Notes under the pieces: generated by a model
Database searches by the model: none
What the model was told of the DNA's origin: nothing
The model's input: the letters and a program-made list of their open reading frames with translations, nothing else
Translations under genes and position numbers: made by a program
Part shown: positions 31,810 through 50,324 of the stretch, in pieces
Layout of the letters: each line of letters opens with the position of its first letter
Position numbering within the stretch: the first letter of the stretch is position 1
DNA from: a virus
Length of the DNA: 64,000 nt
Virus record (IMG/VR): IMGVR_UViG_3300023184_000024
Coordinates: 124,001-188,000 of that record
Reading direction: 5' to 3' (one strand)

Positions 31810-32833
31810 CAGTTACACAAGTTGGCAACCATTAGAGGAAGTAATTGTTGGGCGGGTATACACTCCAGATTATTTTAGCTTTATTGATAATCCCAACGTT
31901 CGTTCACAATTGGGGCAAATACTTGAGGAATCAGCAGAGGACCTTGACAATTTGCAACGCACCATTGAGCAGTACGGTGCCAAGGTTCGTAGACCCGAAT
32001 TGCCTGATATTAACAAATTTCACAATAATCAAATTAGAGACCAAGGTGTTCCTATCCCGCCGTTGACTCCTAGAGACTGGCAAATTACCATGGGAGAAAA
32101 ATTACTGCGAGTATTAAACGTAGACGAAATGACTAACATTTGTCGGGAGTATGAAAATGCACAACCGGGGTGCGTAGTCTCGCCACATCAAAATAGATAT
32201 CAGCCTGATCATGTCATGGCCAATGCTGTGGCTAGTTGTATTGTGCGGGTCGGTACTGATGTGTTTTTTGACAACTCGGAATGGATGACAACTGATCAAA
32301 TGCATTGGATCAGGGACAATGTGCTGGATTCAAGATATCGTGTTCGCAGAGCAGTTACCAACGGTCACGGTGATGCTGTGTTTGCAATTTTAAAACCTGG
32401 TGTTATTATCAGCAGTATACACGATGCAGATATTAACTATAAACAAGATTTTCCTGGATGGGAAGTGTATAAAGTATGGGATCCAACTATCTGGGCTGCC
32501 ATGGAAATAGGCAAATTTAAATATGAAACCAGTCCTGGTGCATGGTACGTGCAAGGGCAAACTCCTTCGCCCGAGTTCACTGACTTTGTCAACACTTACT
32601 TGACCAAGTGGACTGGATTTGTTGCCGAAACAGTGTTTGATGTCAACTGTTTGGTGCTCGATGAGTCACATGTGATTTTCAGTAGCTACAATCAAGGTGT
32701 GTTTGATTTTTGCAGAAAACACAAAATTGAACCTATTATATCTGAACTTCGACACAAGTATTTTTGGGACGGTGGTATCAGTTGTTGTACCCAGGACGTT
32801 CGACGTCGTGGTGGATTAGAAACTTATCTCTAA
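31793..32833 (+). CDS. Amidinotransferase (guanidino-modifying enzyme superfamily)
   Basis: A 346-residue protein. The start SSYTSWQPLEEVIVGRV, the central NGHGDAVF holding catalytic His and Asp, and the C-terminal GGISCCTQDVRR with the catalytic Cys identify an arginine:glycine amidinotransferase-like enzyme. The family moves an amidino group from arginine to an amine, or hydrolyses guanidines. With sugar aminotransferase and glycosyltransferase neighbours, it could make a guanidino-sugar, as in streptomycin pathways; this is inference. Its stop is two bases from the convergent carbamoyltransferase stop. Confidence 0.92.
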   Translation: MNNIVSSYTSWQPLEEVIVGRVYTPDYFSFIDNPNVRSQLGQILEESAEDLDNLQRTIEQYGAKVRRPELPDINKFHNNQIRDQGVPIPPLTPRDWQITMGEKLLRVLNVDEMTNICREYENAQPGCVVSPHQNRYQPDHVMANAVASCIVRVGTDVFFDNSEWMTTDQMHWIRDNVLDSRYRVRRAVTNGHGDAVFAILKPGVIISSIHDADINYKQDFPGWEVYKVWDPTIWAAMEIGKFKYETSPGAWYVQGQTPSPEFTDFVNTYLTKWTGFVAETVFDVNCLVLDESHVIFSSYNQGVFDFCRKHKIEPIISELRHKYFWDGGISCCTQDVRRRGGLETYL

Positions 32834-32835: not shown

Positions 32836-34314
32836 TCATGAGCAAACCTTTACTCCATATAGTGCTTCAAAACGATCTGCGTCGTTGCGATCATTGACTA
32901 TGGGTTCGCCCCTAACATTCAAACTGGTGTTCAACAACATGGGACAACCGGTCTTTGCATACCAAGCTTCTAGTAGTTGTCTAATTCCACTTCCATCTCG
33001 CGGCACAGTCTGTACACGACTAGTGTTGTCAACATGACACACAGCAGGAAATAGGTCAGGATGCCGGCAACGAGCGATTGACTGCATGTACCTACTAGTA
33101 CCGAAGCCATGAGGCATATCAAAGTAATTGTCAACATGCTCTTCCAAAATGACTGGCGCAAATGGTCTGAATTTTTGTCTACGTTTGATTTCATTTACAC
33201 GATCCTTGATGTCTATGCCACGCGGGTCAGCGAGTAGACTGCGGTTACCCAACGCACGGGGTCCGAACTCGGCTCGACCACTAGCAACCCCAACAATCCC
33301 AGTATCCAATAGATGAGCCATTGCAGTGTGGACAGGATAAGGGCCAGTAATGTTGCGGCCCAAAAAAGCAGTGTGCCAATGTAAACGGCCACCGTGGGCA
33401 AGAGCGGCGGCGCCAAGACTAGAACCAGCATCGCCAGGACAAGGTAGTATCCAAATTTTTTCAAAATATTTTCCCAAATGTCTATTGGCCAGGCAATTTA
33501 GTGCAACCCCGCCCATGTATACAAGATTTGTGCTCCACCCAAAATTTCTTGCACGTTGCATGACGTTTTGAATTAGATCTTCAGTGATCAACTGTGCCGC
33601 ACATGCAATATCTTCGTTGGTGGCTGATTCTAAAAATGTCGAGTCAAACCCAACATGCAAATTGTTAGCAAATTCAATGTTTTCAAAATCCTTGATAACG
33701 TTTGTGGCCATACTGCGATACCATGTATCTTTGCCCCAGGCGGCCATGCCCATGGTGATGTATTCTTCGTCTAAGGGGTGTAACCCCACCCTGCTAGTAA
33801 TTGCACTGTAGAACAGTCCAATTGAATGCGGATAATTTTTTTGCCAAAGTTTACGATACTTTGCCATGCCTGTTTGATCATATTCTGCTCCCCAAATTGT
33901 TATAGTTTCCCATTCGCCAATGGCGTCAATTACAACCACCGTGGCTCGTTGATAGGGACTGGTTTGAAATCCAGCGGCTGCATGACTGAGATGATGATTG
34001 TAGTTGAGCACACGCTCAGGCTCAATTTGACCGCCCAGTTGTTTTTTTAATATTTGCTGTACAGTAAATTTGTCCCACTCAATGCCCTGTCCTGCATACC
34101 ATTGACGCAGTTGTTTCAGCCAAGGACGTTCGTAGTATGCAACCACATCTGGCCCATGTTCCAGCACATCATCCAACAGTCCTTGGCAAAAGTCAGGATC
34201 GTTTTTCTTTTTTGAGTAACGTTCTGAATGTCCAGCAAACAATATCTCCCCGTTGGGAGAAATCACAGTTGCGGCTGCATCATGGAATCCGGCACTGATA
34301 CCTAGTATATTCAT
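32836..34314 (-). CDS. NodU/TobZ-type carbamoyltransferase
   Basis: A 492-residue protein. The N-terminal Kae1-like domain starts MNILGISAGFHDAAATVI, with the metal-binding NHHLSHAAAGF and VVVIDAIGEWET. The C-terminal YrdC-like region includes GRAEFGPRALGNRSLLADPR. Such enzymes make carbamoyl-adenylate from carbamoyl phosphate and ATP and carbamoylate a hydroxyl of a sugar or antibiotic. Length is slightly below the usual 550-600. It is the last gene of the 15-gene minus-strand operon, coupled to the 33-residue gene before it by ATGA. Confidence 0.95.
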   Translation of the reverse strand: MNILGISAGFHDAAATVISPNGEILFAGHSERYSKKKNDPDFCQGLLDDVLEHGPDVVAYYERPWLKQLRQWYAGQGIEWDKFTVQQILKKQLGGQIEPERVLNYNHHLSHAAAGFQTSPYQRATVVVIDAIGEWETITIWGAEYDQTGMAKYRKLWQKNYPHSIGLFYSAITSRVGLHPLDEEYITMGMAAWGKDTWYRSMATNVIKDFENIEFANNLHVGFDSTFLESATNEDIACAAQLITEDLIQNVMQRARNFGWSTNLVYMGGVALNCLANRHLGKYFEKIWILPCPGDAGSSLGAAALAHGGRLHWHTAFLGRNITGPYPVHTAMAHLLDTGIVGVASGRAEFGPRALGNRSLLADPRGIDIKDRVNEIKRRQKFRPFAPVILEEHVDNYFDMPHGFGTSRYMQSIARCRHPDLFPAVCHVDNTSRVQTVPRDGSGIRQLLEAWYAKTGCPMLLNTSLNVRGEPIVNDRNDADRFEALYGVKVCS

Positions 34315-34412
34315 TTGTAGATAAATGGGTCTCGTTTGCGTAGTTCTTTGATTTTTCGACGATATTTAATTTCTAAAACTATTCTATTGTAAATTCTTAA
34401 AATCCATTTCAT
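34311..34412 (-). CDS. 33-residue basic phage peptide
   Basis: The frame MKWILRIYNRIVLEIKYRRK followed by IKELRKRDPFIYK is short, very basic and amphipathic. Both ends overlap neighbours as ATGA: its start lies in the stop of the 362-residue gene, and its stop lies in the start of the carbamoyltransferase gene. The ending KELRKRDPFIYK is one I associate with small conserved phage peptides. Function unknown; it may sit on a membrane surface. A peptide substrate for the radical SAM enzymes is a remote option: it has no Cys and no leader-core look. Confidence 0.8.
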   Translation of the reverse strand: MKWILRIYNRIVLEIKYRRKIKELRKRDPFIYK

Positions 34413-35497
34413 GTTGCATTCCTTGATTGGTAGTCATAGCCTGGCCGCATTTGATCAATTTGTTGTTGTTCGTAATCAGCATCACTCCAACAGTAGTTGT
34501 AAACTGCCTTGGTATCTTTTATTTCTACAGAGTATATATCTAAATGAGTACCGAGTATGTTCCAAATATCTTGATAATTTTCGGTGCCAAAGCTCTGTTT
34601 AAGATTTACTTGTCCCACTGGCAAATGCCCTAGGCTCAATTTGGGATCTTGAGGGTCTAACCCATTATTGCTCAACCATTCCCGAAATGAACCAATTGTT
34701 TTGTCGTGCCAAGGATGCTTGCCGCCCAGAGTAATATCATTGCCCCACTCTATATCAAACTCGCCCGAGTAATATTCTAAATGCGTGATAGCTTCGCACA
34801 CTGTGGCTGTAAGTTCTGGAGCGCCTTCGTCTCTAAACACCTCCATCAGAGTTTTACCAATCTGTGCCCAGTGCATGTACACGCCGCCAAACACACGATC
34901 ATATCCGTTGGAGACAAAGCCTTGGCGATGTTCATCTTCTAGCTTGTATCGAGGAGCATTAATCCAAGTAGTAATCTGACTTGGACGCAACCAGTATGGA
35001 TTTGTTTCTGCTTTGCGTAAACCCAATATTAGATTTTCTGCTTCGTGACAAATTAAATTTAACTGTCGTATAGCATACTTGGTTGCATAGTCAGCTCGTT
35101 GATAATACACACTTAGATTTCCTACTGTGCCTTGCAGTACCTCAAAATGGTTGTGTAGTTTATTAAACAACTCGTGATTTACCCCATTGGGACTATGGTC
35201 TGTGGCAAGCACATTGGTTGTTGTAAATACTTCATCAATTTGATATCCCGATAGGTTGGTATTAATTGTGCTGATATGACGGTTAAGCTCGTTACACAAA
35301 TATTCAATGTCACGGGCAGTCTTAGGAAATCCCATAAAACAAAAGTTTTTTTCTAATAAGTTTCCTGAATTCAATAACTTCTTGAGTGCAACTACCCAGT
35401 CAACTGCCAATTGATGATCCTGCACATCAATGACATAATCTACTGTGTCATTTTTATGCAAAGGGTTGCGTAAAATAATTTTAACCTGGGATTTCAT
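34409..35497 (-). CDS. Hypothetical 362-residue protein
   Basis: No recognised domain. The N-terminus (VKIILRNPLHKNDTVDYVID, then LAVDWVVALKKLL) and the late segment KLSLGHLPVGQVNL share a layout with the 268-residue protein at 4618, so the two may be distant paralogues. The central part is helical with paired His and Glu residues (FNKLHNHFEVLQG and LNLICHEAENLILGL), which could bind a metal. It overlaps the radical SAM gene upstream by 17 bases and is likely a partner in the same pathway. Confidence 0.78.
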   Translation of the reverse strand: MKSQVKIILRNPLHKNDTVDYVIDVQDHQLAVDWVVALKKLLNSGNLLEKNFCFMGFPKTARDIEYLCNELNRHISTINTNLSGYQIDEVFTTTNVLATDHSPNGVNHELFNKLHNHFEVLQGTVGNLSVYYQRADYATKYAIRQLNLICHEAENLILGLRKAETNPYWLRPSQITTWINAPRYKLEDEHRQGFVSNGYDRVFGGVYMHWAQIGKTLMEVFRDEGAPELTATVCEAITHLEYYSGEFDIEWGNDITLGGKHPWHDKTIGSFREWLSNNGLDPQDPKLSLGHLPVGQVNLKQSFGTENYQDIWNILGTHLDIYSVEIKDTKAVYNYCWSDADYEQQQIDQMRPGYDYQSRNAT

Positions 35498-36776
35498 TCC
35501 ACCACCTTGTTACTTCTTCACGGCCGGACAATATTTGTTGCATGCTGGTTGCACTTGTTCTTATGTTTTCTAATCTCAACACTCGCTGTTTTCCGCGAAC
35601 AAGTGCATCCTGATACCGGTCTGGCCATTGTTCTGCAAAGGTAGGACGATTTTTTAATTGTAGTAGAACATCACGCATGGCACCTGTAGAGCGTCCTGCT
35701 AATTCGTCAACCCAGGGATCTAATAACTCTCGAGGTAGAGCTAATGGGCTCATTACTACATCTGGAGTAAAACTAAAAATCACTTTGGCCAACAATTCTA
35801 CATTGTAGTCACGAGCCAACTCTTGAATAGCATCTACTTCAAACATGCCTGGCAATGTCAGTGTAAAGTCTAATCGCATTTGTCTACGATTCTTCTGGTA
35901 CTTTAATCCTTGCTCAAAGTTGTCACAGAACTGTTTGTAATCAAGTCCTGTTCGGATGTATTCTCCTGTGGTTCCTGTTCCGTCGAGGCTGGCGCAAATT
36001 TGCCAATCTCGAACATTAGATAAAATATCACGATATAGATTACTACCCCGAAAATCAACGCGACTAAGATTGGTGTTATACCTTGCATATACTTGTCCTC
36101 CATCCCCTAATTCAATTATACGTTTCATGTATCTCCAGTGTTGCTCGTACATCAAAGGCTCGCCGCCTACCCAATATACTTCTTCCACTCGATGTTGCTC
36201 TACAGCTAGAGCGAACTCTGCTTCAATTTGTTGGTCCTGAAATTGGCTTATTTCTGCTCGAACTTCAGGCCTCATCCATGTGTTTTTAGGGTTGCCCCAA
36301 TCAATCATGTCATGTTGTCGCTGTTCGCTTTCCCATGCACTACTTAACATATCGCCACATGTGCGACATTTAAAATTGCAAAGATTACTAAAACGATAAT
36401 CCCAACTCACCGGTTTCATTGTTGTGGTGCCATCTTCTGTGGTTGAATCGACTACCTCATCCCACTTGTGTTTAAACAAATGCCAGAAATATGTACGGTA
36501 AACATCAGTATTCAGCAACTTGTTGTTGCAGACGTCACACTCGGGCAATGTATCTCCGTTTAACATGCGTCGACGCACACTTCGCATATGGTCACTGTTC
36601 CAATGCTGATCTAGGGTGATGGGTATATACTTACCAGTGCCCGCTGTTGTGTCAATGTACTGTTGAAAATTCTGGGCGGGTTCTCTGCTGGCGCAACACA
36701 TCCTGCGCTCAGTTTGCGGGCTCAAGTATGTGTGCGTCCAAGGCGCCATGCAAAAATTATTCGGTGGCGAGATCAT
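35481..36776 (-). CDS. Twitch-type radical SAM protein 1
   Basis: A 431-residue protein. N-terminal cysteines C9, C27-C28 and C80/C83 (CMAPW, RRMCCAS, ECDVC) form an auxiliary-cluster block of the twitch/SPASM type. The radical SAM motif C133-x3-C137-x2-C140 (CNFKCRTC) and the barrel motif VGGEPLMYEQHW (GGEP) follow, then SLDGTGTTGEYIRTGLDY. The layout matches three neighbours here. Substrate unknown; these enzymes usually modify peptides or sugars. Overlaps both neighbours. Confidence 0.92.
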   Translation of the reverse strand: MISPPNNFCMAPWTHTYLSPQTERRMCCASREPAQNFQQYIDTTAGTGKYIPITLDQHWNSDHMRSVRRRMLNGDTLPECDVCNNKLLNTDVYRTYFWHLFKHKWDEVVDSTTEDGTTTMKPVSWDYRFSNLCNFKCRTCGDMLSSAWESEQRQHDMIDWGNPKNTWMRPEVRAEISQFQDQQIEAEFALAVEQHRVEEVYWVGGEPLMYEQHWRYMKRIIELGDGGQVYARYNTNLSRVDFRGSNLYRDILSNVRDWQICASLDGTGTTGEYIRTGLDYKQFCDNFEQGLKYQKNRRQMRLDFTLTLPGMFEVDAIQELARDYNVELLAKVIFSFTPDVVMSPLALPRELLDPWVDELAGRSTGAMRDVLLQLKNRPTFAEQWPDRYQDALVRGKQRVLRLENIRTSATSMQQILSGREEVTRWWNEIPG

Positions 36777-37980
36777 AGTCTAGCAGGGTTGCCAATTCGG
36801 GCGCCACAGTTTTTAAATTTTGAGATCTACGAACATCAAGATGTTTAATTTGGCTTTTGGTCATGAAGCCATCTGTGCTGGCTCCATTGTTCATGAAATC
36901 AATGATTCGATCAAATTCGGTTTGAAATTTTGCAGGAATTTCAGCGTTTTGTAAATGTTGAGTGATGACTTTCTTGGCAGTGTCGGGTAGATTGGCAATA
37001 CTAAAATACCAAGCATCGTGCATCATATTCCAATACACAAAATTAAACGGTTTATGTTCCAACCACTGTGCCACTTGATCAATGTAGCGTACATTAAACA
37101 CATTCACCGTGGTGCATACCTGCAGTTGTATCGTCATGGGCAGGTAACGTTTTAATTCAAAAAACTTTTTAATATTTTCTTGTACTTCTGTCCATACAGC
37201 ATTACTGCGTTGGTATTCAAATCTTTCCCCAATGTCGTCGATGCTGAATGCTATTTCTACTGTTTTAAAATGCTGCCAAATGTCTGGACCTCTTTCAGGG
37301 AATATTGTACCATTGGTGTTGTAGTGTATTTCTACATTGCCTGCAATGCCTCTTTCAACAATGCGTTCCAACATGTCAAAATGCTCTTGTATCATAAACG
37401 GTTCGCCGCCTGTGAATTCAATATACTGTATGTGGTCGAGTACTTGATCAATTTCTGACCAAAATGTTTGGTTTTTTCTGGGCCAGGCACCTTTTCTAAG
37501 CATGATATAATGTTCGCTGGATTTTTTATCTTCGTGTTCAGGAAGACTGTTGATTTCTTCTGAGGCAAACGTGCTTGAACTCCAGGAACCGCAAATGCGA
37601 CATTTTAGATTACAAATATTTCCCAGTTTGAGATCAAGAAATTGCAAAGGTTTTGATTCATCGGTCCATTCTTGATCAGGGATCACATGCTTTAATCGAT
37701 TGATAGTGTGCATTCGTTTACTAGTGCGACCGGCAGCTTCCTCTTTCCAGCACTTGCGACAAGTTTGCGGACGTTCGCCATCTAAGAACTGTTGTCTAAG
37801 TTTTTTCATAGACTGACTGTCTTGTATCTCTACAAAGCTTGCAGTGTTCAAATCAAACTTTTGTCCTTGATCATTGCGAATTTCGTCGTCGGCCAGGCAA
37901 CATGGTCTCACTGTGCCTATTGGACTAGTCTCTAAACTTATCCAGGGCAATACACAGAATTTATCGTGTGGGATATTCAT
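36757..37980 (-). CDS. Twitch-type radical SAM protein 2
   Basis: A 407-residue protein with N-terminal cysteines C9, C27-C28, C74 and C77 (CVLPWISLE, RPCCLA, CRKC), core C123-x3-C127-x2-C130 (CNLKCRIC) and GGEPFMIQEHFD. Near the end it is more helical than its relatives. It ends with an LDVRRSQNLK segment. It overlaps the next gene by 20 bases and the previous by four. Confidence 0.92.
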   Translation of the reverse strand: MNIPHDKFCVLPWISLETSPIGTVRPCCLADDEIRNDQGQKFDLNTASFVEIQDSQSMKKLRQQFLDGERPQTCRKCWKEEAAGRTSKRMHTINRLKHVIPDQEWTDESKPLQFLDLKLGNICNLKCRICGSWSSSTFASEEINSLPEHEDKKSSEHYIMLRKGAWPRKNQTFWSEIDQVLDHIQYIEFTGGEPFMIQEHFDMLERIVERGIAGNVEIHYNTNGTIFPERGPDIWQHFKTVEIAFSIDDIGERFEYQRSNAVWTEVQENIKKFFELKRYLPMTIQLQVCTTVNVFNVRYIDQVAQWLEHKPFNFVYWNMMHDAWYFSIANLPDTAKKVITQHLQNAEIPAKFQTEFDRIIDFMNNGASTDGFMTKSQIKHLDVRRSQNLKTVAPELATLLDYDLATE

Positions 37981-39239
37981 AACAGTGCCTTTAACTCGGG
38001 TATTACATTACTCCAAGACTCATTTCTAATGCTATCTAACTCATGCGTTTTGCGCCAGAACGTGTCGATTAAATGAGTGTTGTCTGTGGTGTTCATGAAA
38101 GTAATAGCACTTTCAAATCCTGTGGTAGCACGGTGCAACGGATCTTGATCACGCAACCATTCCAAATGTTGCTCATATTTTTCTTGTATACGAGCTTTGT
38201 ATTCTGCTGGTGCAATGTCTATTCTATAGTGTGCAGGATCTTGCAAGATGTTTACATTTAAATCCTGTGCTCGAATAAGACCTTGATCAACCCAGGCACG
38301 ATGGAAGTCGGGCAAATGCAACGCATTCATTATGCTTAATGTAGGACTGATATAAAAGTCCACGTTGGGGCAAATGGCCATCATATCTCGACGATTTTGT
38401 TGTACCACAGCCCAGTCTGTACCTTTGCGTATGTACTCTCCACGAACACCCATATCATCTAAACTGGCGCCAACTGCAACAGACTGGAACTGTTTCCAAT
38501 ACTCAAATACACTACGTCCTTTTAAGTCTGTGTGAGTGAAGTTTGTGTTGTATATTAAGCGCACATCAAATCGTCGGCGGCGAACCAATTCATCTAGGAT
38601 ACGATAATGCTCTTCCATTAACAATGGCTCACCACCGGCAAAATAGATTTGTTCTACGTAGTCTAAATGCGGTTCTAGTTGTTGCCACATGTCCGTTTCT
38701 GTGCGGCCGGCATAGTTTAGCACAGTGTTGCGTTCTTTCCAATCGCCACCGGCCAGCTTGGCTTGGTCCTGGTACCATTGACTGCTAAAGATATGACCAC
38801 AGCTACGGCATTTTAAATTACACAAATTGCTGAAACGAATATCCCAATAAGTCATTTCAAAAGGATTGGTCTCTAGCTTTTTAATATGATGTCCGTGGTG
38901 CTTGTTGGCACTACGTCGACCACTAAAGAATCCCGACTCTTCTTGTTCATAACAACGTGTGCAGGCTGCATTGGGTGTTTCACTCAGCATGTCTGTGCGT
39001 AGTCGTTGCATGGGTTTGTCACGCCAGATTTCTTCAAGTGTGTTTGTTCTACAATTGCCCACTACACCGGGTTTCATTTCGGCATGGCAGCAAGGGTATG
39101 CCTCGCCCGTGGGGTAAGCATGTAAATGAATCCAGGGATAGATACAAAATGTTTTTGAGTCTTGTAACAAGAACTGTTCACGCTGTGTTAGTTCTACTGG
39201 TTTCACTAAGTCAGTTGAATTATAGTTATAATCTGCCAT
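37977..39239 (-). CDS. Twitch-type radical SAM protein 3
   Basis: A 420-residue protein. Auxiliary block C32, C50-C51, C93 and C96 (CIYPWIHLHAYP, YPCCHAE, CTRC), core C140-x3-C144-x2-C147 (CNLKCRSC), GGEPLLMEEHYRI and SLDDMGVRGEYIRKGTDW. It is closest in form to protein 1. An extra ~23 residues precede the first cysteine. Coupled by ATGA to the following gene. Confidence 0.92.
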   Translation of the reverse strand: MADYNYNSTDLVKPVELTQREQFLLQDSKTFCIYPWIHLHAYPTGEAYPCCHAEMKPGVVGNCRTNTLEEIWRDKPMQRLRTDMLSETPNAACTRCYEQEESGFFSGRRSANKHHGHHIKKLETNPFEMTYWDIRFSNLCNLKCRSCGHIFSSQWYQDQAKLAGGDWKERNTVLNYAGRTETDMWQQLEPHLDYVEQIYFAGGEPLLMEEHYRILDELVRRRRFDVRLIYNTNFTHTDLKGRSVFEYWKQFQSVAVGASLDDMGVRGEYIRKGTDWAVVQQNRRDMMAICPNVDFYISPTLSIMNALHLPDFHRAWVDQGLIRAQDLNVNILQDPAHYRIDIAPAEYKARIQEKYEQHLEWLRDQDPLHRATTGFESAITFMNTTDNTHLIDTFWRKTHELDSIRNESWSNVIPELKALL

Positions 39240-40548
39240 ACCACTCTTTTAAATTAGGGAACGTTTCATTAAAATTTTTATATCGTCGAGCATCGTACTG
39301 CAAATGGAACTCTTTAAAATCATGCAACAATGTTGGCATGTCAAATGTTTCACTGTGCGGAGTTTTTACAACGTCCAAGTAATCAATTAATCTTTGTGTG
39401 TGATTTATTTCGTGCTCGTGCAAGTAACTGTGGTCTTTGTGTCGCATTAACCACTCAGTCAGATTCTGTTTGTAATGTTCTCGCAAATCCTCACTCAGTA
39501 CTAAAGCACTCTGAAAGCTGGGAAAACGCAAGATGTTTAATGTAAAATTAAGGTACTCACGACCGTATTGTTTTTTCCAAGCAACTAATTGATCTAAATG
39601 GTCAGACAAGCTGTCCAAGCACAAGGCATTAATGGTGCACATACAATGAACTACTATACCTGCATCCAATAGTTTTAACACATTGTTGCACCAAGCACGG
39701 TAATCCAACCCGTCACGGATGTATTCGGCTTGGCTTCCTGTGGCTTCCATGGAAGTGTAGATTTCAACTTGTAAGCCCTTGGTGCTGGCCAACAGTCGAT
39801 CTACATCTACGTCTGCTCCTAGATTTGAATTAATAGCCAGGCGTGTATTAGTTCGCCCAGGGTTGTTTTTAAACCAATCAATCAGTTTCCAGGTGTAGCC
39901 ACTCATTAGCGGCTCTCCGCCGGTGATTCTTAGTTCTTGTAGTGTTCTGTGGAGGTCTGATTCCCACCATTCAAAGAACGCTTCCACGTACGGATTAGTT
40001 TCACCGAATTTATACAATTGAGCACTATTATGCTCGTGAGTAAAATGGTTACGACCGTCTGACTCCAGTTTAAGGTAAGGTCCGTTCTTTTTAATGTCGT
40101 TGACCCATGTACTACTAAAAGCAGGATTGCAATAACTGCAAGCAAACTGGCAAGTTCTATCAAACGCAATTTCCAAGGTGCGGAGATCAACGTCTTGGTC
40201 AACAGGAGTGTTATATGCTTCATTCAAGGCCTTTATAGGATAAATTTTACTTTTGTACACACGGTCACTGACAGCATTGGTGTCCATGTCTTCAATTTTC
40301 CAGCAGTATTCGCAACCAGGTGGACGTTCGCCAGCTAGCATCTGGCGCCGGTCTTCTTTCTTTTGTGCTGTATTATGTATTGCTTTGGGATTGGTTTTGA
40401 ACTCAGCACCAATGGTGTGTGCAGGAGGATGATGGCAACTGGTTGTTTGTCCTGAACCTAACCATATAGTAGCATTATACCATTTGGCCGCACAAAAGCT
40501 TGAACTTTTAGTGTCTAATATTTGCGTTTTAAAGTCGCGATCGTTCAC
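39226..40548 (-). CDS. Twitch-type radical SAM protein 4
   Basis: A 440-residue protein with a different auxiliary block: C19, C38 then C79/C82 (CAAKWYNATIWL, SCHHPPAHT, CEYCW). The single Cys followed by HHPPAH replaces the CC pair of proteins 1-3, and the same CYHPPLH form occurs in the fused protein at 41671. The core is C133-x3-C137-x2-C140 (CQFACSYC), then GGEPLMSGYTWKL and SMEATGSQAEYIRDGLDY. It and the fused protein form a second subfamily. Confidence 0.92.
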   Translation of the reverse strand: MNDRDFKTQILDTKSSSFCAAKWYNATIWLGSGQTTSCHHPPAHTIGAEFKTNPKAIHNTAQKKEDRRQMLAGERPPGCEYCWKIEDMDTNAVSDRVYKSKIYPIKALNEAYNTPVDQDVDLRTLEIAFDRTCQFACSYCNPAFSSTWVNDIKKNGPYLKLESDGRNHFTHEHNSAQLYKFGETNPYVEAFFEWWESDLHRTLQELRITGGEPLMSGYTWKLIDWFKNNPGRTNTRLAINSNLGADVDVDRLLASTKGLQVEIYTSMEATGSQAEYIRDGLDYRAWCNNVLKLLDAGIVVHCMCTINALCLDSLSDHLDQLVAWKKQYGREYLNFTLNILRFPSFQSALVLSEDLREHYKQNLTEWLMRHKDHSYLHEHEINHTQRLIDYLDVVKTPHSETFDMPTLLHDFKEFHLQYDARRYKNFNETFPNLKEWYGRL

Positions 40549-41687
40549 TGTGTATTTTCTCTGATGAAATTTAAAAATCGGTTTGGAAAGTTGTCAACCA
40601 AATCTCTGCGATATTCTGCTAGTCGTTGTTGATTATATTTACAAATATCTTGCGAGGCTGCTAGGAAATCAACTAAATCTCCGCGACATAAATCTTCAAC
40701 CACTTCGGCAATTCTTTCGATGCGATCTAAATCATGTTCTATACTGTCAAAACTTTCATCAATTAAATTGCCAAAAGTTTTAAATCCAATTCTATGCATG
40801 TCTCGATAAAACCCTGCATTGGCCACAGCAATCCAGGGATGGGCCATGGCAATAGGTTTCCATATCTTCTCGGTGCGGAAGCTGTAGGGATTATGAAAAA
40901 TAGTTTCAGTTACTAGGCTAAAGTATGTGTCAATGTACGGCTCGGCCTTGAGGTATGCTTCGCCCCATTCGTTGTTGAACAAGCTGTGTTTGACCAAACT
41001 TGTATTGGTGGTATCTAAATTATCAAGCTGATCGCTGTATCTATCAACTTCGTAGTGTTTGGGCAATAGGCGCAGTGGTGATTCTTTAGCCATTAAGTTT
41101 TCCCCGTTGTGCCATAATGGTAGACGAGTTGCACCTGCTGTGCCCAATGTACTAAGACAAGTATACAGACTGTGTTCTAGTAGTCCAGTTGTTCTAAATT
41201 TTTCCAACAACCATTTACGATGCTGACGATGCCGTCCATTTAAAAATAAAAACTTATAGGGCTTATGTGTTTTTTTGTAGATGTCAGTCCATCTCTGAGC
41301 AACAACATCATTGTCATCAAGTTTGAGCAAATTATCAACAAATCCATCGTAGTTGTAATAACAGAATTCTGGGCTCATGTCGCCGCCGGCCAGCAACATT
41401 ATTTTTCTTTCACGTGCCAACTCTGTTATATTATATCGACGCAACTGCCCTATCATTGTGTCGGCACCTTCCCAGGGATTGCTAAAAATAATGTTGGCTT
41501 GGCCAGATTGTGCAACTTCTTCTATTAGTTTGTGGTAATGCTCAAATTGCCAAGGCCCCAACAGATATGTAGCGCCAGGCTCGATATTAATCTTATCAAA
41601 GAACTGGAACTCGCCGTCTAATGCCGAGCCGATAATATCGTAAATTCCGCAGTGGTATCCACTGTACAACTTAACGTTTTTTTGCAT
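40545..41687 (-). CDS. Glycosyltransferase-like protein, TEK-motif family (copy 3)
   Basis: A 380-residue protein between two radical SAM genes, overlapping both. FSLVTETIFHNPYSFRTEKI, then WKPIAMAHPWIAVANAGFYR and FKTFGNLIDESFDS, match the plus-strand copies at 29507 and 30625. The middle has KFLFLNGRHRQHRKWLLEKF, a likely nucleotide-sugar or acceptor loop also seen in copy 2 as IFTALNRTHKWWRASCM. It links the minus operon with the plus-strand sugar genes. Confidence 0.8.
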   Translation of the reverse strand: MQKNVKLYSGYHCGIYDIIGSALDGEFQFFDKINIEPGATYLLGPWQFEHYHKLIEEVAQSGQANIIFSNPWEGADTMIGQLRRYNITELARERKIMLLAGGDMSPEFCYYNYDGFVDNLLKLDDNDVVAQRWTDIYKKTHKPYKFLFLNGRHRQHRKWLLEKFRTTGLLEHSLYTCLSTLGTAGATRLPLWHNGENLMAKESPLRLLPKHYEVDRYSDQLDNLDTTNTSLVKHSLFNNEWGEAYLKAEPYIDTYFSLVTETIFHNPYSFRTEKIWKPIAMAHPWIAVANAGFYRDMHRIGFKTFGNLIDESFDSIEHDLDRIERIAEVVEDLCRGDLVDFLAASQDICKYNQQRLAEYRRDLVDNFPNRFLNFIRENTQ

Positions 41688-43620
41688 GGTACTCGCACTC
41701 AGCCCACCAAGACTGCATTTCAGGAAATGCTGTTAAGAAACTAGTCCCTCGTCGACGGTCGTGCTCTGAGAAGAATTGATAAAAGTCTCCTTTGGCTGTG
41801 CTATGATCATCCAATTGCTTTTGCCGCATCCACGAGATGTCTCTTTCTAGTCGTTGCACTTCGTAGTCCTTGAATCCTTGAAATGGCGATAGATTGGATT
41901 CTAGATTGTTGGACATAAAAGTCTTGGAAGATTCTAACACACAGGCATAGCTTTCGGGAAGTATTTGTAAGCTTTGCCAACTGGGTTGTCGTAGTACCGG
42001 TGTATCAAACCACACACGCTGATATGTCTTACTGTGTTTTTTTCTTAGTTCTAAAATTCCGTTAAGCAGTTTCTGGAAACTAGTAACCGATAAATTATTC
42101 ATGGTCACAATGAAAGTCAAACTATTATAACTAGGAACTTGTGTTAGATATTGATCGACCCTGCTCCAAACAAGATCAAAATCCATGCCGTGTCTAATGT
42201 ATTCGGCTTGACTTCCCCAGGCATCCAAACTTACATACTGCATGAAATGTTCAATCTGCCCATTGCAAATTTTCTTAACATAATCTAGGTATCGATCAAA
42301 TAGCCGTTGTTCCACTGAAAAATTAGAAGTCACATTGAGGTGTAATTTAGGATTGGGATTCTCTAACACGTAATCAAACACCTTGTAGGTATTCTTATCC
42401 ATTAGGGGTTCTCCACCAGTCATGCGAAAGTGTTCAAGCTCAGGATATAACTCGGGCCACCATTTCCAGAACGCATCAACATAGGGGTTGTCTTCGCGTA
42501 CCGGTATTGGTTTGTTATGTCCAACAAAATGCTCAGGTGCATTGTGTGGAGTTGACGTCGGATATGCACCGAATCGATCTATTTCGTCTTGCCAACTTGA
42601 GCTAAACTGAGGGCTACAATAACTACATTTAAGATTGCAGGCATGATTAAAATTAACTTCAACATAGCTGGGATTGATATTATCAGTCCACTCTGCACTA
42701 ACAATTTTACCAAAGTCTTTGGCTGCCCAAGGTTCTCCACTACGATAAAATCTATCGCTGAGATTGCCAAGGTCCTCCATGTTCCAGCAATAGCTACACT
42801 CACTGGGACGTTTGCCGTTGAGCATGAGCCTTCGCTGTTCTTTTTTGTGCGTTGTATTGTGCAGGGCACTGGGGCTACGAGTTATATCCTCAATGGGAAT
42901 ACGGTGTAACGGTGGGTGGTAACAACTGTTGTTTAATCCGGTGGGCAGGTGCAGGCTGACCTGTTTCCATTTGGCCAAACACAGGCTGGGACTATACTCA
43001 TCCAATCTCATGCGCATTTTTTCTGCATCATCTAGAAACTTTGATTTGAATCCATCTTCGACTTTTTCTGTTGGCAATTCTGCTAGGCTTTTTGCTTTTA
43101 ATCGATTGAGGTATGTGAGTGTGCGATCAAATATATCACTGCTGGATAATTCTAATTCTTGTTTCATCATTTGCGCAAACTCACCGAGATCTGTGTCAAT
43201 GTCAATTACCAAATCTGCACCTGTGGTATCCAGAGGATATTGTGCATAATAATTTAAATGATAGGAAATGGTGCTTTGAGCATTTTCCATCGGGTCGTCT
43301 AACTGTCTTTTATTTGCTCGTTGTTGACCGGCCAGCACCCATTCGCGTCTAATGCACTTGTCAAGATTCCCATGTATGATTACCACTGGCCGGTCCGGCC
43401 AATGTTGCTTGAGCAATGGTACATTCACACAGTGGGTTAGTATTATTGGTTCTGATTCAAGCCCAATTGTGTCATTGGATAGATATCGAAATTTTGTTTG
43501 ATCGCCTTTATTTTCATAGAATTGTTGATCATAAACAAAATTAGATTTAAAGTCTCGCTGACCTTGTGAATACAAGTAGTAACGGTTGCCTCCTGCACCT
43601 GGATAGTAGCCAATAATCAT
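41671..43620 (-). CDS. Fusion: P-loop/sulfotransferase-like domain plus twitch radical SAM
   Basis: A 649-residue protein. Residues 1-~190 start YYPGAGGNRYYLYSQGQ and continue with PVVIIHGNLDKCIRREW, like the nucleotide-binding opening of the 224-residue protein at 9761. From ~205 the protein matches radical SAM protein 4: C214, C233 (CYHPPLHR), C275/C278, core C328-x3-C332-x2-C335 (CNLKCSYC), TGGEPLMDKNTY and SLDAWGSQAEYIRHGMDF. Fusion suggests both activities act on one substrate, perhaps phosphorylation or sulfation coupled to radical chemistry. Confidence 0.9.
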   Translation of the reverse strand: MIIGYYPGAGGNRYYLYSQGQRDFKSNFVYDQQFYENKGDQTKFRYLSNDTIGLESEPIILTHCVNVPLLKQHWPDRPVVIIHGNLDKCIRREWVLAGQQRANKRQLDDPMENAQSTISYHLNYYAQYPLDTTGADLVIDIDTDLGEFAQMMKQELELSSSDIFDRTLTYLNRLKAKSLAELPTEKVEDGFKSKFLDDAEKMRMRLDEYSPSLCLAKWKQVSLHLPTGLNNSCYHPPLHRIPIEDITRSPSALHNTTHKKEQRRLMLNGKRPSECSYCWNMEDLGNLSDRFYRSGEPWAAKDFGKIVSAEWTDNINPSYVEVNFNHACNLKCSYCSPQFSSSWQDEIDRFGAYPTSTPHNAPEHFVGHNKPIPVREDNPYVDAFWKWWPELYPELEHFRMTGGEPLMDKNTYKVFDYVLENPNPKLHLNVTSNFSVEQRLFDRYLDYVKKICNGQIEHFMQYVSLDAWGSQAEYIRHGMDFDLVWSRVDQYLTQVPSYNSLTFIVTMNNLSVTSFQKLLNGILELRKKHSKTYQRVWFDTPVLRQPSWQSLQILPESYACVLESSKTFMSNNLESNLSPFQGFKDYEVQRLERDISWMRQKQLDDHSTAKGDFYQFFSEHDRRRGTSFLTAFPEMQSWWAECEYHAKKR

Positions 43621-44693
43621 AGTTCTAACAGTTGTAATAATCTATGTGAAAAAAATATGTTTTTGTTATTTTGATTTTTAATTTTAGAAACAAGTTCTTT
43701 ACATTGCAAATAATCAACATGCGTTTTTGACAGCACATCGTGATCAATGTATGTACCGTTGTTAATCTCCCACGAGTCCGGAGTTGGTGTTGGTGTTCTG
43801 CTCCAAGTTCCCCAGTCGTCTAGTTGATGTAGTACTCCTTTGAACCCATAGTCGCAACAAATGCGAACAAAATTTTCCATGTCTAAAAAGTTATTTTTTT
43901 GCACAGCAAAATTTAATGTTGTGATATGTTGCTTATTGATTGTTTTTACATAATCAAAGTTCTCTAAAAGTATTTTCCAACTTCCGCCTAATCTAACATT
44001 TTCATAGACCTCAGACGACCCTGCATCAACACTGATTCCTAAATCTACAATATTGTTTAAAATTGGACTGTCAGACAGTTGTTTTTTAATCAGTAGCCCG
44101 TTGGTAAGCAATTTAAAAATCTGTGTGCTTTTTGGTTTCCAAGACTTAATAAGAGGTCGGGTAATCTGACTGGCCAGCGGGTCGCCGTTGCCTGACATGG
44201 TAATTCTGATAGGTCTTTCAAAATTGTCAAGCCATTGGATGATGCGTTCAACGTCTTTCTTTTTACTTTCAACAACATCACCGTCTAAATGCATGATTGG
44301 GGCTCGTCGGCAACTGGGGCAATGTAAATTGCAACTATCATCAATGTTGATGCTTATGGTGTTTATCTGATTGATGATATTTTGTTTTTTAATTCCGCAA
44401 TGATCTACTGCGCACCAGGTAAACTTTTTATTTTCAACGTCATCTTGCAAAGTTTTTGCAATTGGACTATTCCATAGTTCGTCAAGACTATTAAAATCTT
44501 TTACTTTACCAACCGGGATTGGCAACCAACCGTCACAGGTGCATACAAAACAATCAGAATTGGAATCAACAATCAACGACATGTAAGGAACATTGCAACT
44601 ATTTGTAATAGTTTCTGTTGCGCCTTTGCCTCTAGGCATGGATTTAAGCTTGTGTGCCAGTCCCGGAGTTAGATCAAAATATGACATTACCAA
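43617..44693 (-). CDS. Radical SAM protein of the SPASM/twitch type, second form
   Basis: A 358-residue protein close to the one at 19741. N-terminal cysteines C33, C48, C51, C53, C94 and C99 (MSLIVDSNSDCFVCTCDGW) precede the core C121-x3-C125-x2-C128 (CNLHCPSC). SGNGDPLAS replaces the usual GGEP motif, as QGDGRGEML does in the 19741 protein, and GISVDAGSSEVYENVRLGG follows. The pair forms a third radical SAM subfamily in this phage. Overlaps both neighbours. Confidence 0.9.
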   Translation of the reverse strand: MVMSYFDLTPGLAHKLKSMPRGKGATETITNSCNVPYMSLIVDSNSDCFVCTCDGWLPIPVGKVKDFNSLDELWNSPIAKTLQDDVENKKFTWCAVDHCGIKKQNIINQINTISINIDDSCNLHCPSCRRAPIMHLDGDVVESKKKDVERIIQWLDNFERPIRITMSGNGDPLASQITRPLIKSWKPKSTQIFKLLTNGLLIKKQLSDSPILNNIVDLGISVDAGSSEVYENVRLGGSWKILLENFDYVKTINKQHITTLNFAVQKNNFLDMENFVRICCDYGFKGVLHQLDDWGTWSRTPTPTPDSWEINNGTYIDHDVLSKTHVDYLQCKELVSKIKNQNNKNIFFSHRLLQLLEL

Positions 44694-45613
44694 CCTTCTT
44701 GCTGACGTATTACATCAATTTCGCGGACCATGACTCCTTGATTGTGCCAGTTACTTCGATAGTGATGTTTAAAAAACCCACTACCGCGGTCATCTAACAA
44801 TACAATGGGAAGATCGAGTTGTGTTGATAAATCTTCGGCCACTCTTCCTGCTACTACTTCTGGATCATGGTCTTTGACAGTATCCCAAAGCTCGGCCAGC
44901 ACATCAAAATTTTGCACTAGTTTATAGTCCCAGTTACTCAACATTGTCATGTAGGTTCCCTGCCTTGCTCCTGCAATTGACCAAGCGCCATTTTCTACAT
45001 CTCTTCCAACGTTGTGCCAAATCGTTAAATTCTCAAGATTCTTTTTATGAACCATGGTTCGAAAATCATTGACACTGGGCTTTGCGCCTTTGTTAAGACA
45101 CATTTTAACACCTTCACGGAATCCTGCTCGCCATGCCTGGAATGGAGACCCATTTGGGTAGGTTGTTGAGTAGCAGTCGTGCATTGCCCAATACAAGGGG
45201 TCGAAACAAAATTCAACCAATGTTTCATCACGTCCATCAGAGTTTTCGTGTGTGCGCATATTCCAAATATGTTCACGTGTCCACGAACTAATTCCTCCGT
45301 TGCCGTACATGAGGCCGTTGACATGATTTCGAGCTCTCCATCTATAAACTGCTTTGGCCCAATCATCATTGGTGTATTCTAAGGTAAGATTAAAAAACTT
45401 TTCGTCGGGCAAATTATCTCCGTCGATTAAAATAAACCGTTCAGTTGTGCTGGCATCTGCGGCTGCTTTATGGGCCGCATCACTGCCGTTGACTCCGTCA
45501 ACTCTGATTGCCCAAGGAATTGCATTTTTAATCTTTACCCAAAATTCTTCTTTTTGTGGCTCGTCATAGCTTAGATAAACACAATCAAGATCAGCAATAT
45601 CAATTTGTTCCAT
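44687..45613 (-). CDS. GT-A-like glycosyltransferase domain protein
   Basis: A 308-residue protein. The N-terminus LDCVYLSYDEPQKEEFW followed by ERFILIDGDNLPDEKFF looks like a GT-A fold with a DxD metal site (DGDN). HVNGLMYGNGGISSWTREHI and SPFQAWRAGFREGVKM match the C-terminus of the 609-residue protein at 27679. A shorter C-terminal domain ends LDLPIVLLDDRGSGFFKHHY. It probably transfers a sugar. Overlaps both neighbours. Confidence 0.83.
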   Translation of the reverse strand: MEQIDIADLDCVYLSYDEPQKEEFWVKIKNAIPWAIRVDGVNGSDAAHKAAADASTTERFILIDGDNLPDEKFFNLTLEYTNDDWAKAVYRWRARNHVNGLMYGNGGISSWTREHIWNMRTHENSDGRDETLVEFCFDPLYWAMHDCYSTTYPNGSPFQAWRAGFREGVKMCLNKGAKPSVNDFRTMVHKKNLENLTIWHNVGRDVENGAWSIAGARQGTYMTMLSNWDYKLVQNFDVLAELWDTVKDHDPEVVAGRVAEDLSTQLDLPIVLLDDRGSGFFKHHYRSNWHNQGVMVREIDVIRQQEGW

Positions 45614-45938
45614 TATTTTTTAAACTCCATTTGGTGTGTAACTGGTCACAGTTTACTATCACGGCCACATCACAGGGATCACAGCATGCCCCTTGAGTCT
45701 GATGTGGTTTTAATTTTTGTACAAAATTGTTGACATTTAACACAATTTTGTTATCTTTAACATGTATATTGCGCAGTGATTGGGCAAACTGTTCTTTGGT
45801 TATTTCAATGTAATTACCTGGTAGGTCTTCCATTGCGTAAAATGTCGGCTGTCCGTTGCCGTCATAGTAAAGTCTATAAAATATAGGGCCAGGCAAAGGA
45901 ATATCATGTAGTATTGTCCAAAACTCATCGGGCGTCAT
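45600..45938 (-). CDS. 112-residue hypothetical phage protein
   Basis: Mixed alpha/beta protein with DEFWTILHDIPLPGPIFYRL at the start and two cysteines in GACCDPCDVAVIVN. The type, a strand-rich small protein with a DPxDVxVxV motif, is familiar from large marine and freshwater phages. Role unknown; it is embedded between glycosyltransferase genes and overlaps both by 14 bases. Confidence 0.8.
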   Translation of the reverse strand: MTPDEFWTILHDIPLPGPIFYRLYYDGNGQPTFYAMEDLPGNYIEITKEQFAQSLRNIHVKDNKIVLNVNNFVQKLKPHQTQGACCDPCDVAVIVNCDQLHTKWSLKNNGTN

Positions 45939-46713
45939 TGAGCCATTCCTTTACATTATAGTGAAATGCGCCCCACTGAGCAATGGTGTTTATGCGAAGA
46001 TTGTCGTTCCATTCCCACACAAGCTCGTCTGTCCAATTTTCAGTGGCTGTGCCTGCGATATGTTTTTTCATATGTACAATTTTTGGATATTCACTGAACG
46101 GCAATGTGCATTTTTCCGGGCCAATTATTTGAGCGGCCATTGCATATACAAGATCTGTTGTGGGCACTTTGTCAGGAAATTTTAATATCTTTTGAAATTT
46201 GTCCCAATTTTCAAATATGCTTTTAACAAGATTAAAAAACTCTTGCGCATCCTTGCTAAGCCGCCAATATGTTATTGCATTGTAAACATCGGGTAAGTTG
46301 TTTTCATCAAATGTGCGTCGGTAATGCCGTGCATCACTGACTTCATCTTTCCAGTTTCTACACCCGGTACTGACAACAATATCTCTATGTCTAAACATAT
46401 TCCACCAGTGTTCAATTGAACTAGTAATCAACATGTCTGCTTCAAGTTTAATTGTTTCTCTAAATGGGGTCGCATGAAATACTTGCCAATCATTGCACTG
46501 ATGGTTGCCGCCGTTGCTTTGATCTCCGTTGGGCAAAGGCACGACATGATCAAACACAGGATCACTGCAACGATTTAATGTCATGACAGCAATTCTAGCA
46601 TCGGGGTGAAACTTTCTTATACTCTGAGCCAGTATTGACGCACACGCAACATAATCAACACTGTCTGTGTTCAGTGCCGGTATAAGGTAGCCTTGTTCTT
46701 CAATGGGCTTCAA
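45925..46713 (-). CDS. GT8-like glycosyltransferase (copy 1)
   Basis: A 262-residue protein: VDYVACASILAQSIRKFHPD at the start as in GT-A enzymes, RETIKLEADMLITSSIEHWW carrying the acidic metal-site segment, and VYNAITYWRLSKDAQEFFNL after it. The C-terminal HMKKH fits the His/Lys motif of GT8-type enzymes. Similar in layout to the next gene upstream (46700). Overlaps both. Confidence 0.82.
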   Translation of the reverse strand: MKPIEEQGYLIPALNTDSVDYVACASILAQSIRKFHPDARIAVMTLNRCSDPVFDHVVPLPNGDQSNGGNHQCNDWQVFHATPFRETIKLEADMLITSSIEHWWNMFRHRDIVVSTGCRNWKDEVSDARHYRRTFDENNLPDVYNAITYWRLSKDAQEFFNLVKSIFENWDKFQKILKFPDKVPTTDLVYAMAAQIIGPEKCTLPFSEYPKIVHMKKHIAGTATENWTDELVWEWNDNLRINTIAQWGAFHYNVKEWLNDAR

Positions 46714-47503
46714 TTATTTTCCCCAAATGCTTTTTACCCATGACATGTAGGTCGGTGCCAAAAAATCCAATATTTCTACGAGCCCCTTTAACATCAACCC
46801 AATGTATATCAAACGAATCTTGTGCCAGCTGTGTAATTGCGTGGTCTGGCATGATTGTTGCAAGGTCCCATGGAATACTATCCACAGCCAGTGTGTGCCC
46901 GTTAACAATGCCCAATGCAATGCTCAATGCATAATCGTTGCGATAGGTTGATCGTTGTATGCCATACAAGTTTCTATAGTGCTGCCAATTATTTTTAATC
47001 ATCTGCATTGAATCAAAAATATATTGTGCGGTATTTGATTTACGAAACAGCATCACTGTTGCCCACCACATGGGCAACTTGTAATTGCCAAACCAATTAG
47101 ACTCATCAAAGTATCCAGGGCCTGTAATGTCCCAAGCGGTACGATGACACACAAAATCTAGATTAGAATTAAACAATACTTTCAATTTTGAACTGGCCAC
47201 AATATAATCAGCATCCAATACCAACGTTTGATCGTAGGGAGTTAACCTATATGCATCAACCCGGTTGGCATTGTACCAAGGAACAGTATGACCAATGTCG
47301 GAAAAATGCCGTTGGCCTCCCAATTCTTTGTCTACGACTATTACCTGTTCAAAATTAAAATTATCTGGAACCCGAGTGTTATCTGTTACCACTGTGGTAC
47401 CAATGCCAAGGTGTCTGCGAATATTTGCTGCACTCCAGTTGGCCATAGACAAATAATCTATGTCATCGTTGTTAAATGCAAAAATTAATGCGCCTGTGCT
47501 CAT
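46700..47503 (-). CDS. GT8-like glycosyltransferase (copy 2)
   Basis: A 267-residue protein starting IFAFNNDDIDYLSMANWSAA, with the DxD motif in YDQTLVLDADYIVASSKL. LPMWWATVMLFRKSNTAQYI and the closing LHVMGKKHLGK match the GT8 layout. GT8 enzymes transfer hexoses with retention of configuration, often onto lipopolysaccharide. Coupled by ATGA to the gene before. Confidence 0.85.
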   Translation of the reverse strand: MSTGALIFAFNNDDIDYLSMANWSAANIRRHLGIGTTVVTDNTRVPDNFNFEQVIVVDKELGGQRHFSDIGHTVPWYNANRVDAYRLTPYDQTLVLDADYIVASSKLKVLFNSNLDFVCHRTAWDITGPGYFDESNWFGNYKLPMWWATVMLFRKSNTAQYIFDSMQMIKNNWQHYRNLYGIQRSTYRNDYALSIALGIVNGHTLAVDSIPWDLATIMPDHAITQLAQDSFDIHWVDVKGARRNIGFFGTDLHVMGKKHLGKIIEAH

Positions 47504-47808
47504 CTTTTTTGACTTACTTCAGCATAGTCAAGCAACCAGGCATTCATCTGTTCTTGCCAACGTTGTTGTGCTGCCAATTCTAGTTCATCGACGTCGATAC
47601 GCACAGGATTTTCATACAAGTCAAGAATCACTGCTGATTCTCTGTCAGGGCATGCACTTAGTACAGTCAATAGTTCAGGACCTGCTCGCCACATGCCACC
47701 GGCATACGCAAAAATCATTTTTGCCTGGTATTTTTCTTTGAGCACTCGTTTGGCTGCTTGATGATCAAAACGTGCTTTTGAATGTGAAATTAATTGATTG
47801 GTATCCAT
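47500..47808 (-). CDS. 102-residue conserved phage protein, first gene of the operon
   Basis: The frame MDTNQLISHSKARFDHQAAK, then EKYQAKMIFAYAGGMWRAGP and WQEQMNAWLLDYAEVS, is of a type I recognise as common in large phages and unassigned. The promoter at 47818-47846 predicts a transcript beginning within a few bases of its ATG, so translation may be leaderless. Its stop overlaps the next start as ATGA. Confidence 0.85.
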   Translation of the reverse strand: MDTNQLISHSKARFDHQAAKRVLKEKYQAKMIFAYAGGMWRAGPELLTVLSACPDRESAVILDLYENPVRIDVDELELAAQQRWQEQMNAWLLDYAEVSQKR

Positions 47809-47817
47809 AATGTTTTA

Positions 47818-47846
47818 ATTATACAGGAATAATTGAAAAAAGTAAA
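47818..47846 (-). promoter_or_regulatory. Promoter of the minus-strand biosynthetic operon
   Basis: Reading on the minus strand: TTTACT (47846-47841), 17 bases, TATAAT (47823-47818), then nine bases to the ATG at 47808. The -35 overlaps the tail of the upstream terminator. Confidence 0.65.
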
Positions 47847-50314: not shown

Positions 50315-50324
50315 ATATTTATGC
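50315..50324 (-). promoter_or_regulatory. Possible late promoter motif GCATAAATAT (second copy)
   Basis: On the minus strand the motif overlaps the stop codon of the 201-residue gene and lies upstream of the fibre at 48888-50264. Identical to 13410-13419. Confidence 0.4.

Follow-up and report, generated by a model that had tools for sequence, protein, structure and literature searches.

Regions that combine radical S-adenosylmethionine (rSAM) enzymes and glycosyltransferases near tail genes have precedent in phage CP220 and in the pelagimyophages. The rSAM module of phages CP220 and CPt10 was described without an identified function (Timms et al. 2010, PMC2853527), as were the rSAM cassettes that accompany tail-fibre-adjacent glycosyltransferases and sugar enzymes in the host-recognition cluster (HRC) of pelagimyophages and cyanomyophages (PMC7029224). 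Glycans on virion proteins have been found in mycobacteriophages, according to the account in PMC12619734 (Freeman et al. 2023). Here we describe an operon in a 64,000-nucleotide stretch of DNA, termed the window, comprising bases 124001 to 188000 of the 352,754-base virus record IMGVR_UViG_3300023184_000024. The operon lies directly downstream of a tail module, on the same strand, and contains five rSAM genes that form a fixed set; the locus is conserved as a core locus in a group of very large, mostly uncultured freshwater phages. This five-rSAM core was not described in the literature searched (open-licence papers). The claim of an undescribed system made in a preliminary description of the window, therefore, held for the core as such, while the CP220 and pelagimyophage regions make it less unprecedented.

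ORF calling placed 14 co-directional minus-strand open reading frames (ORFs) between 47808 and 32836, one fewer than had been proposed. Overlaps, said to join every gene to its neighbour, were present at 12 of the 13 junctions (4, 14, 14, 14, 7, 4, 17, 4, 14, 4, 20 and 17 nt), the sole exception being a 94-nt gap between unk362 and carb. The operon encodes six rSAM proteins, four glycosyltransferase-like proteins and one carbamoyltransferase, in the following order from 47808 (pLDDT is the predicted local distance difference test of an AlphaFold2 model).

u102, 47500 to 47808, minus strand: 102 residues, first gene of the operon, kept right after the tail genes; no Pfam or PHROG match.
gt8b, 46700 to 47503, minus strand: predicted GT-A-like glycosyltransferase with an LVLDAD motif; conserved; homologous to gt8a.
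gt8a, 45925 to 46713, minus strand: predicted GT-A-like glycosyltransferase with a TIKLEADM motif; phrog_1903 (unknown function), E 1e-7.
u112, 45600 to 45938, minus strand: small protein of 112 residues, a conserved member of the cluster with no family in Pfam or PHROG.
u308, 44687 to 45613, minus strand: GT2-like glycosyltransferase candidate with an ILIDGDN motif; very conserved core gene.
rS6, 43617 to 44693, minus strand: accessory rSAM protein; PF04055 E 7e-8; NF033640 41 bits.
rS5, 41671 to 43620, minus strand: N_Twi rSAM protein, extended at the N-terminus by an additional domain of about 195 residues; NF033640 322 bits.
gtC, 40545 to 41687, minus strand: predicted GT-B-like glycosyltransferase; pLDDT 93.6.
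rS4, 39226 to 40548, minus strand: N_Twi rSAM protein, GTG start; NF033640 293 bits.
rS3, 37977 to 39239, minus strand: N_Twi rSAM protein, Twitch domain N-terminal; NF033640 397 bits; very conserved.
rS2, 36757 to 37980, minus strand: N_Twi rSAM protein; NF033640 350 bits.
rS1, 35481 to 36776, minus strand: N_Twi rSAM protein; NF033640 287 bits.
unk362, 34409 to 35497, minus strand: conserved protein between rS1 and carb; pLDDT 88.9.
carb, 32836 to 34314, minus strand: O-carbamoyltransferase of the NodU/TobZ/GdmN family; PHROG 1601.

All six rSAM proteins had an intact CxxxCxxC motif. They fell into three groups (rS1/rS2/rS3, rS4/rS5 and rS6), as anticipated in the preliminary description. 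Scores for rS1 to rS5 (287 to 397 bits) were all above the curated cut-off of NF033640, a family of rSAM proteins with an N-terminal Twitch domain (170 bits over the full model), whereas the score for rS6 was 41 bits, and this protein is of another rSAM/SPASM type. The motif was present in all orthologues of rS1 (n = 60), rS2 (n = 66), rS3 (n = 70), rS4 (n = 71) and rS5 (n = 65), being located at position 133 in every rS4 orthologue, and the N-terminal Cys residues of the rS1 to rS5 orthologues were at least 95% conserved. In a tree, each of these five proteins formed one clade relative to the others with support of 98 to 100, and rS4 and rS5 grouped together. In a related locus, L012, the counterpart of the extra rS5 domain is encoded by a gene of its own at the corresponding slot (36 to 49% identity), indicating that cargo has fused to the core; the domain looked P-loop- or sulfotransferase-like by eye but had no Pfam match and was left unnamed. 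No substrate or function was found for the NF033640 family in the present analysis.

A query with rS3 identified 221 related stretches in IMG/VR. In the best 80 of these loci, rS3 was 78 to 88% identical and the gene order was the same, as it was in most of 26 gtC loci. The layout recurred in more than 100 retrieved loci, indicating that the arrangement is not due to chance. In order not to select for the operon itself, the tail-module protein v201 was used as an anchor and its 80 closest relatives were collected. Among loci of sufficient length, gt8b followed in 68 of 68, u308 in 62 of 62 and rS5 in 57 of 60; the three loci lacking rS5 extended just 2.1 to 4.1 kb past u308, into a slot that takes large inserts. 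Across 54 distinct loci covering the interval from u308 to carb, retrieved partly with operon-gene queries, rS1 to rS5 were complete and in order in 53, while gtC was present in 48 and rS6 in 4. Among the retrieved loci in general, those reaching both rS1 and carb had unk362 between the two, and a few had no recognised carb. The most conserved rSAM proteins were at least as conserved as the tail proteins. The fixed presence of five diverged paralogues bore out the earlier suggestion of one co-ordinated multi-enzyme system and is as expected if each enzyme performs a different step. Rather than being scattered and unlinked among other phages, the genes were linked within this uncultured clade; a search of 50,697 annotated phage records gave no match to rS4 or unk362 and only a few to rS1 and rS2.

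Variable inserts were detected around this core, amounting to 605 ORFs with favoured slots between u308 and rS5 (253), unk362 and carb (121), rS2 and rS1 (117), and rS3 and rS2 (31). Pfam analysis of 120 insert clusters yielded rSAM proteins (21) and GDP-mannose dehydratases/epimerases (8), with other matches to SGNH/GDSL proteins, UDP-glucose dehydrogenase, DegT, cytidylyltransferase, PfkB, hexapeptide transferase and methyltransferase families. Neither the core nor the 605 insert proteins included a flippase, a polymerase, an initiating membrane transferase or any protein with three or more membrane spans. A secreted-looking insert (a signal peptide followed by VITIKSPYGAQ), which by eye looked like a periplasmic binding protein, occupied the u308/rS5 slot in about 20 loci (L016:2497-3417 and relatives).

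The plus-strand genes that had been reported to face the operon were found as described, with a further large gene, gt609, on the minus strand.

Amidinotransferase (amid), 31793 to 32833, plus strand: AGAT/StrB1-like; present in part of the clade.
gtB, 30625 to 31809, plus strand: predicted GT-B-like protein of the gtC family; hidden Markov model homology to gtC, E 3e-18.
gtA, 29507 to 30628, plus strand: predicted GT-B-like protein of the gtC family; hidden Markov model homology to gtC, E 1e-19; relatives common as inserts.
gt609, 27679 to 29508, minus strand: large protein with a u308-like domain; common in the clade.
DegT/DnrJ/EryC1 sugar aminotransferase, 26688 to 27710, plus strand: Pfam E 5e-60.
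NAD-dependent nucleotide-sugar epimerase/dehydratase, 25604 to 26650, plus strand: Pfam E 2e-44; PHROG 540.

The carbamoyltransferase assignment was confirmed, as carb had both Carbam_trans_N (118 bits, E 6e-34) and Carbam_trans_C (164 bits, E 3e-48) above the cut-off, and its PDB matches were TobZ, GdmN and decarbamoylnovobiocin carbamoyltransferase; truncation of carb was rejected as its length equals that of its phage homologues. A phmmer search of the PDB with amid matched AGAT (E 4e-12) and StrB1 (E 5e-9), with homology extending through the C-terminal region. Two more amidinotransferase homologues are present elsewhere in the record, at 208048 and 332049, as are several gtC-family genes and a scatter of rSAM matches (16 in the whole record). 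The four proteins described as glycosyltransferase-like have support of differing kinds. The best PDB matches of the gtC model in a Foldseek search were mostly GT-B enzymes, and gtC is thus predicted to be GT-B-like. For the u308 family, which is homologous to one domain of gt609, weak Pfam GT2 matches were obtained for 10 of 22 members (best E 1.8e-4). A GT-A-like identity for gt8a and gt8b is suggested by their motifs and mutual homology; PDB and Pfam sequence searches with gt8a had no match, and profiles of u308, gtC and gt8a gave nothing usable against PDB sequences.

The tail module upstream of the operon consists of four genes.

v331, 47883 to 48878, minus strand: Ser/Thr-rich virion protein and candidate acceptor, with a PA5oct homologue.
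fib458, 48888 to 50264, minus strand: tail structural protein, homologous to a PA5oct virion structural protein.
v201, 50319 to 50924, minus strand: tail-module protein and independent anchor, with homologues in PA5oct and Atu_ph07.
Giant structural protein of 4265 residues, 51068 to 63865, minus strand: PA5oct and Atu_ph07 have a giant structural protein in the corresponding place, with probable homology judged from synteny.

Both Atu_ph07 and PA5oct have homologues of v201 and fib458 in the corresponding position. In the PA5oct record, the homologues of v201, fib458 and v331 carry a note of electrospray ionization tandem mass spectrometry (ESI-MS/MS). These tail-protein relatives suggest the label of a T4-like jumbo phage; the Moraphages (PMC12619734), whose description does not mention rSAM enzymes, were considered as a possible match to the lineage, and identity is not claimed. 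The combined Ser and Thr content of v331 (30.5%) was the highest among 263 ORFs, indicating a candidate acceptor, and was 30% across the v331 family versus 22% in the homologue from PA5oct, which has no cluster at this site. Other features of the window are 27 tRNA genes and a tmRNA (tag ANDEQFALAA), located at 131 to 9022 and 12733 to 13133. The T4-type late promoter octamer TATAAATA occurred 0 times in the 64-kb window versus 3.3 expected, and no conclusion on expression was drawn.

Our preferred reading, to which we give a little under even confidence, is that the locus encodes a soluble, cytoplasmic glycan-tailoring pathway decorating a phage tail or fibre protein before assembly. The GT-A-like (gt8a, gt8b, u308 and gt609) and GT-B-like (gtC and gtA/gtB) transferases would build a short glycan from unusual nucleotide sugars supplied by the epimerase, the aminotransferase and accessory genes varying among the phages. 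Each of the obligatory enzymes rS1 to rS5 would carry out one radical step, for example an oxidation, deoxygenation or epimerisation, on a sugar or on the attachment site. End groups would be added or trimmed by carb, amid and accessory enzymes of the SGNH type. The most likely acceptor would be v331 or a neighbouring fibre protein. We infer the glycan product, the virion acceptor, and the order and chemistry of the steps from several features. A sugar character of the pathway is indicated by the sugar-type inserts, the GT-B-like gtC and the relationship of carb and amid to TobZ and StrB1, which act in aminoglycoside biosynthesis. The strict linkage to tail genes supports a virion protein as the target. 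Wzx/Wzy loci have multi-span membrane proteins, and the contrasting lack of any protein with at least three spans here argues for a cytoplasmic acceptor. The similar associations in cultured phages K566 and CP220 also count in favour of glycan tailoring. With regard to the three products originally envisaged, the best fit is a glycan, which would probably be carried by a virion protein; a modified nucleotide is disfavoured, as is a surface glycan in the form of a lipid-carrier polysaccharide.

Several observations weigh against glycan tailoring of a virion protein. No product or glycosylated protein is known, and unk362, u102 and u112 are unaccounted for; relatives of unk362 were phage proteins only, and a fold search of the PDB with its predicted structure gave no match. 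The glycosyltransferase labels of gt8a and gt8b are motif-based, that of u308 comes from weak profile matches, and the fold matches of gtC are individually weak (E above 1e-3, from 5e-3 upward, with a template modelling score of about 0.35). The count of zero multi-span proteins is not significant alone, as the phage background is 5 of 343 ORFs with three or more spans, and use of host lipid-linked sugars and host flippases is compatible with a lack of phage membrane proteins. Furthermore, the chromosome of Bacteriovoracaceae bacterium UBA6144 contains a cluster of eight N_Twi-like rSAM genes flanked, as judged by eye, by obg/rpmA-like and lgt-like genes (L316:6040-18036), and each of the five phage types has a match in it; no adjacent glycosyltransferase was recognised in this cluster, indicating that the rSAM enzymes may act on something else. 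Lone bacterial rS3 homologues also had no consistent sugar context. Their neighbours were mixed (9 rSAM proteins, 2 carbamoyltransferases, a few glycosyltransferases and SGNH proteins), and a sugar context was set aside as not decisive.

Other relatives outside the freshwater group were detected. Diverged marine versions keep most of the layout, including the five-rSAM core; these loci (L309, L310, L311, L312 and L380) have GTDB labels of Pelagibacter, Betaproteobacteria, Verrucomicrobia, Rickettsiales and Rhodobacteraceae and look like mis-binned phage contigs as they carry both the tail module and the cluster. A match to rS1 at E below 1e-60 was obtained in 12 of 291 Bdellovibrionota genomes, several of these being beside rS2 or rS4. 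Carbamoyltransferase-, amidinotransferase- and rS1/rS3/rS6-like genes occur together in one Bdellovibrionota genome (L408:3869-12782, genome G156).

An unlikely explanation, but one with a published parallel, is that the cluster remodels the surface glycan of the infected cell, such as lipopolysaccharide or O-antigen, and thereby, for example, blocks co-infection. Such a role was proposed for the glycosyltransferases of a comparable tail-adjacent region (PMC7029224), nucleotide-sugar enzymes were present among the inserts, and some Bdellovibrionota rS1 loci had sugar-nucleotidyltransferase- or polysaccharide-like neighbours by eye. The lack of a flippase, polymerase and initiating membrane transferase argues against this role, as do the strict linkage to tail structural genes and a number of enzymes exceeding the need of a simple surface change.

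Peptide chemistry in the manner of a ribosomally synthesized and post-translationally modified peptide (RiPP) is also rather improbable. In this case, rS1 to rS5 would alter amino-acid residues in a virion protein or a small protein, and the glycosyltransferases would work either on that peptide too or independently. Many SPASM/Twitch rSAM enzymes modify peptides, and the bacterial five-rSAM set, having no recognised glycosyltransferases, would be compatible with such a function. In Atu_ph07 and Phosso, moreover, SPASM-type rSAM genes come after the same tail module, together with a gene for a protein of 296 or 306 residues whose C-terminal tail is nearly identical in the two phages (DFCHSSCHASCHNSRSRR and DYCHTSCHASCHSSRSRR), and these clusters keep peptide modification alive as an explanation. 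The window cluster, however, had no recognisable core peptide of a Cys-rich or repeat type, u112 and u102 are not convincing as precursors, the insert cargo is sugar-related and the rhizobial clusters hold a different rSAM type. The Atu_ph07 and Phosso proteins (L147:16449-17339 and L410:17679-18599) are 42% identical overall, and their last 18 residues, of a Cys-His-x-Ser type, are nearly identical (CHSSCHASCHNSRSRR and CHTSCHASCHSSRSRR); no close relatives of this protein were found in IMG/VR. It is a candidate for a RiPP-like modified phage protein. A protein of 300 residues there, assigned by length, is likely a structural relative of unk362. These clusters suggest that rSAM chemistry may be a more general feature next to this tail module.

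A hypermodified DNA base or nucleotide is a very unlikely product. Some phage DNA-modification pathways include carbamoyltransferases and rSAM enzymes, and glycosyltransferases can glycosylate phage DNA, but the genes are located beside tail genes rather than replication genes, and neither a pyrimidine hydroxymethylase of the thymidylate synthase family (PF00303) nor QueC was found in the 352.8-kb record, which is possibly incomplete, in searches with working controls; this result argues against a hypermodified base. That the genes are auxiliary cargo acting in host metabolism with no link to the virion, as suggested for the CP220 module (PMC2853527), is scarcely credible given their co-directional, tightly overlapping arrangement, their strict tail linkage across the clade and a conservation of the most conserved rSAM proteins matching or exceeding that of the tail proteins.

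A bolder extension of the glycan-tailoring reading, which we regard as possible but on balance doubtful, is that this five-rSAM pathway, common in outline to jumbo phages and a few Bdellovibrionota, makes a chemically new post-translational modification of a phage tail protein. The modification would be either a glycan remodelled by radical chemistry or a linkage between glycan and peptide, and exchangeable tailoring cassettes around a fixed core would vary the exposed structure among phages. The tail surface decides which host a phage meets and how the particle looks from outside. If this proposal were correct, phages would be placing unusual modifications on their own particles and varying them by cassette swapping, and a substrate class would be available for the widespread NF033640 subfamily. 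The question is testable by mass spectrometry in the cultured phages K566 and CP220, which have related clusters.

Among the known systems compared, mycobacteriophage virion glycosylation has the same kind of outcome as that proposed here, although glycosylation is only predicted for the window; the passages of PMC12619734 dealing with that system name no rSAM enzymes. TobZ, StrB1 and BtrN, which are aminoglycoside tailoring enzymes, were matched by carb, amid and the Twitch domain of rS3, respectively, but no aminocyclitol pathway was recognised here, and the BtrN match was weak (E 0.007) and involves a Twitch domain that is C-terminal in BtrN. A Wzx/Wzy O-antigen locus differs in its multi-span flippase, polymerase and initiating transferase. 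The cultured Vibrio phages K566 and K567 have four N_Twi-related rSAM proteins, two GT8 proteins and one GT4-like protein in one region, but these rSAM proteins are distant (20 to 26% identity), the genes are on both strands, carb and unk362 had no match, and window-type tail genes were not seen beside the cluster; K566, with a 255-kb genome and the cluster at L146:14971-22710, offers a laboratory model. Like the window, CP220 and CPt10 have five rSAM genes, a glycine-amidinotransferase-like gene (CPT_0086 of CP220 and amid are homologues, E 1e-12) and two GT-A-like proteins; in CP220, which is T4-like, the module lies downstream of genes of the baseplate/PAAR type. The CP220 rSAM proteins are not orthologous to those of the window, giving weak matches mainly to rS6, and no carbamoyltransferase was seen in the module. 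Its published description has it exchanged between two nearly identical phages, in contrast to the fixed five-rSAM core found here. Although rS1 to rS5 belong to an established subfamily, NF033640, they occur here as a set of five distinct orthologous clades. The operon is tail-adjacent and has glycosyltransferase-like and rSAM genes, as does the HRC; the HRC, positioned from VrlC to gp14, was described as hypervariable, whereas the operon is a constant, ordered core with variable inserts.

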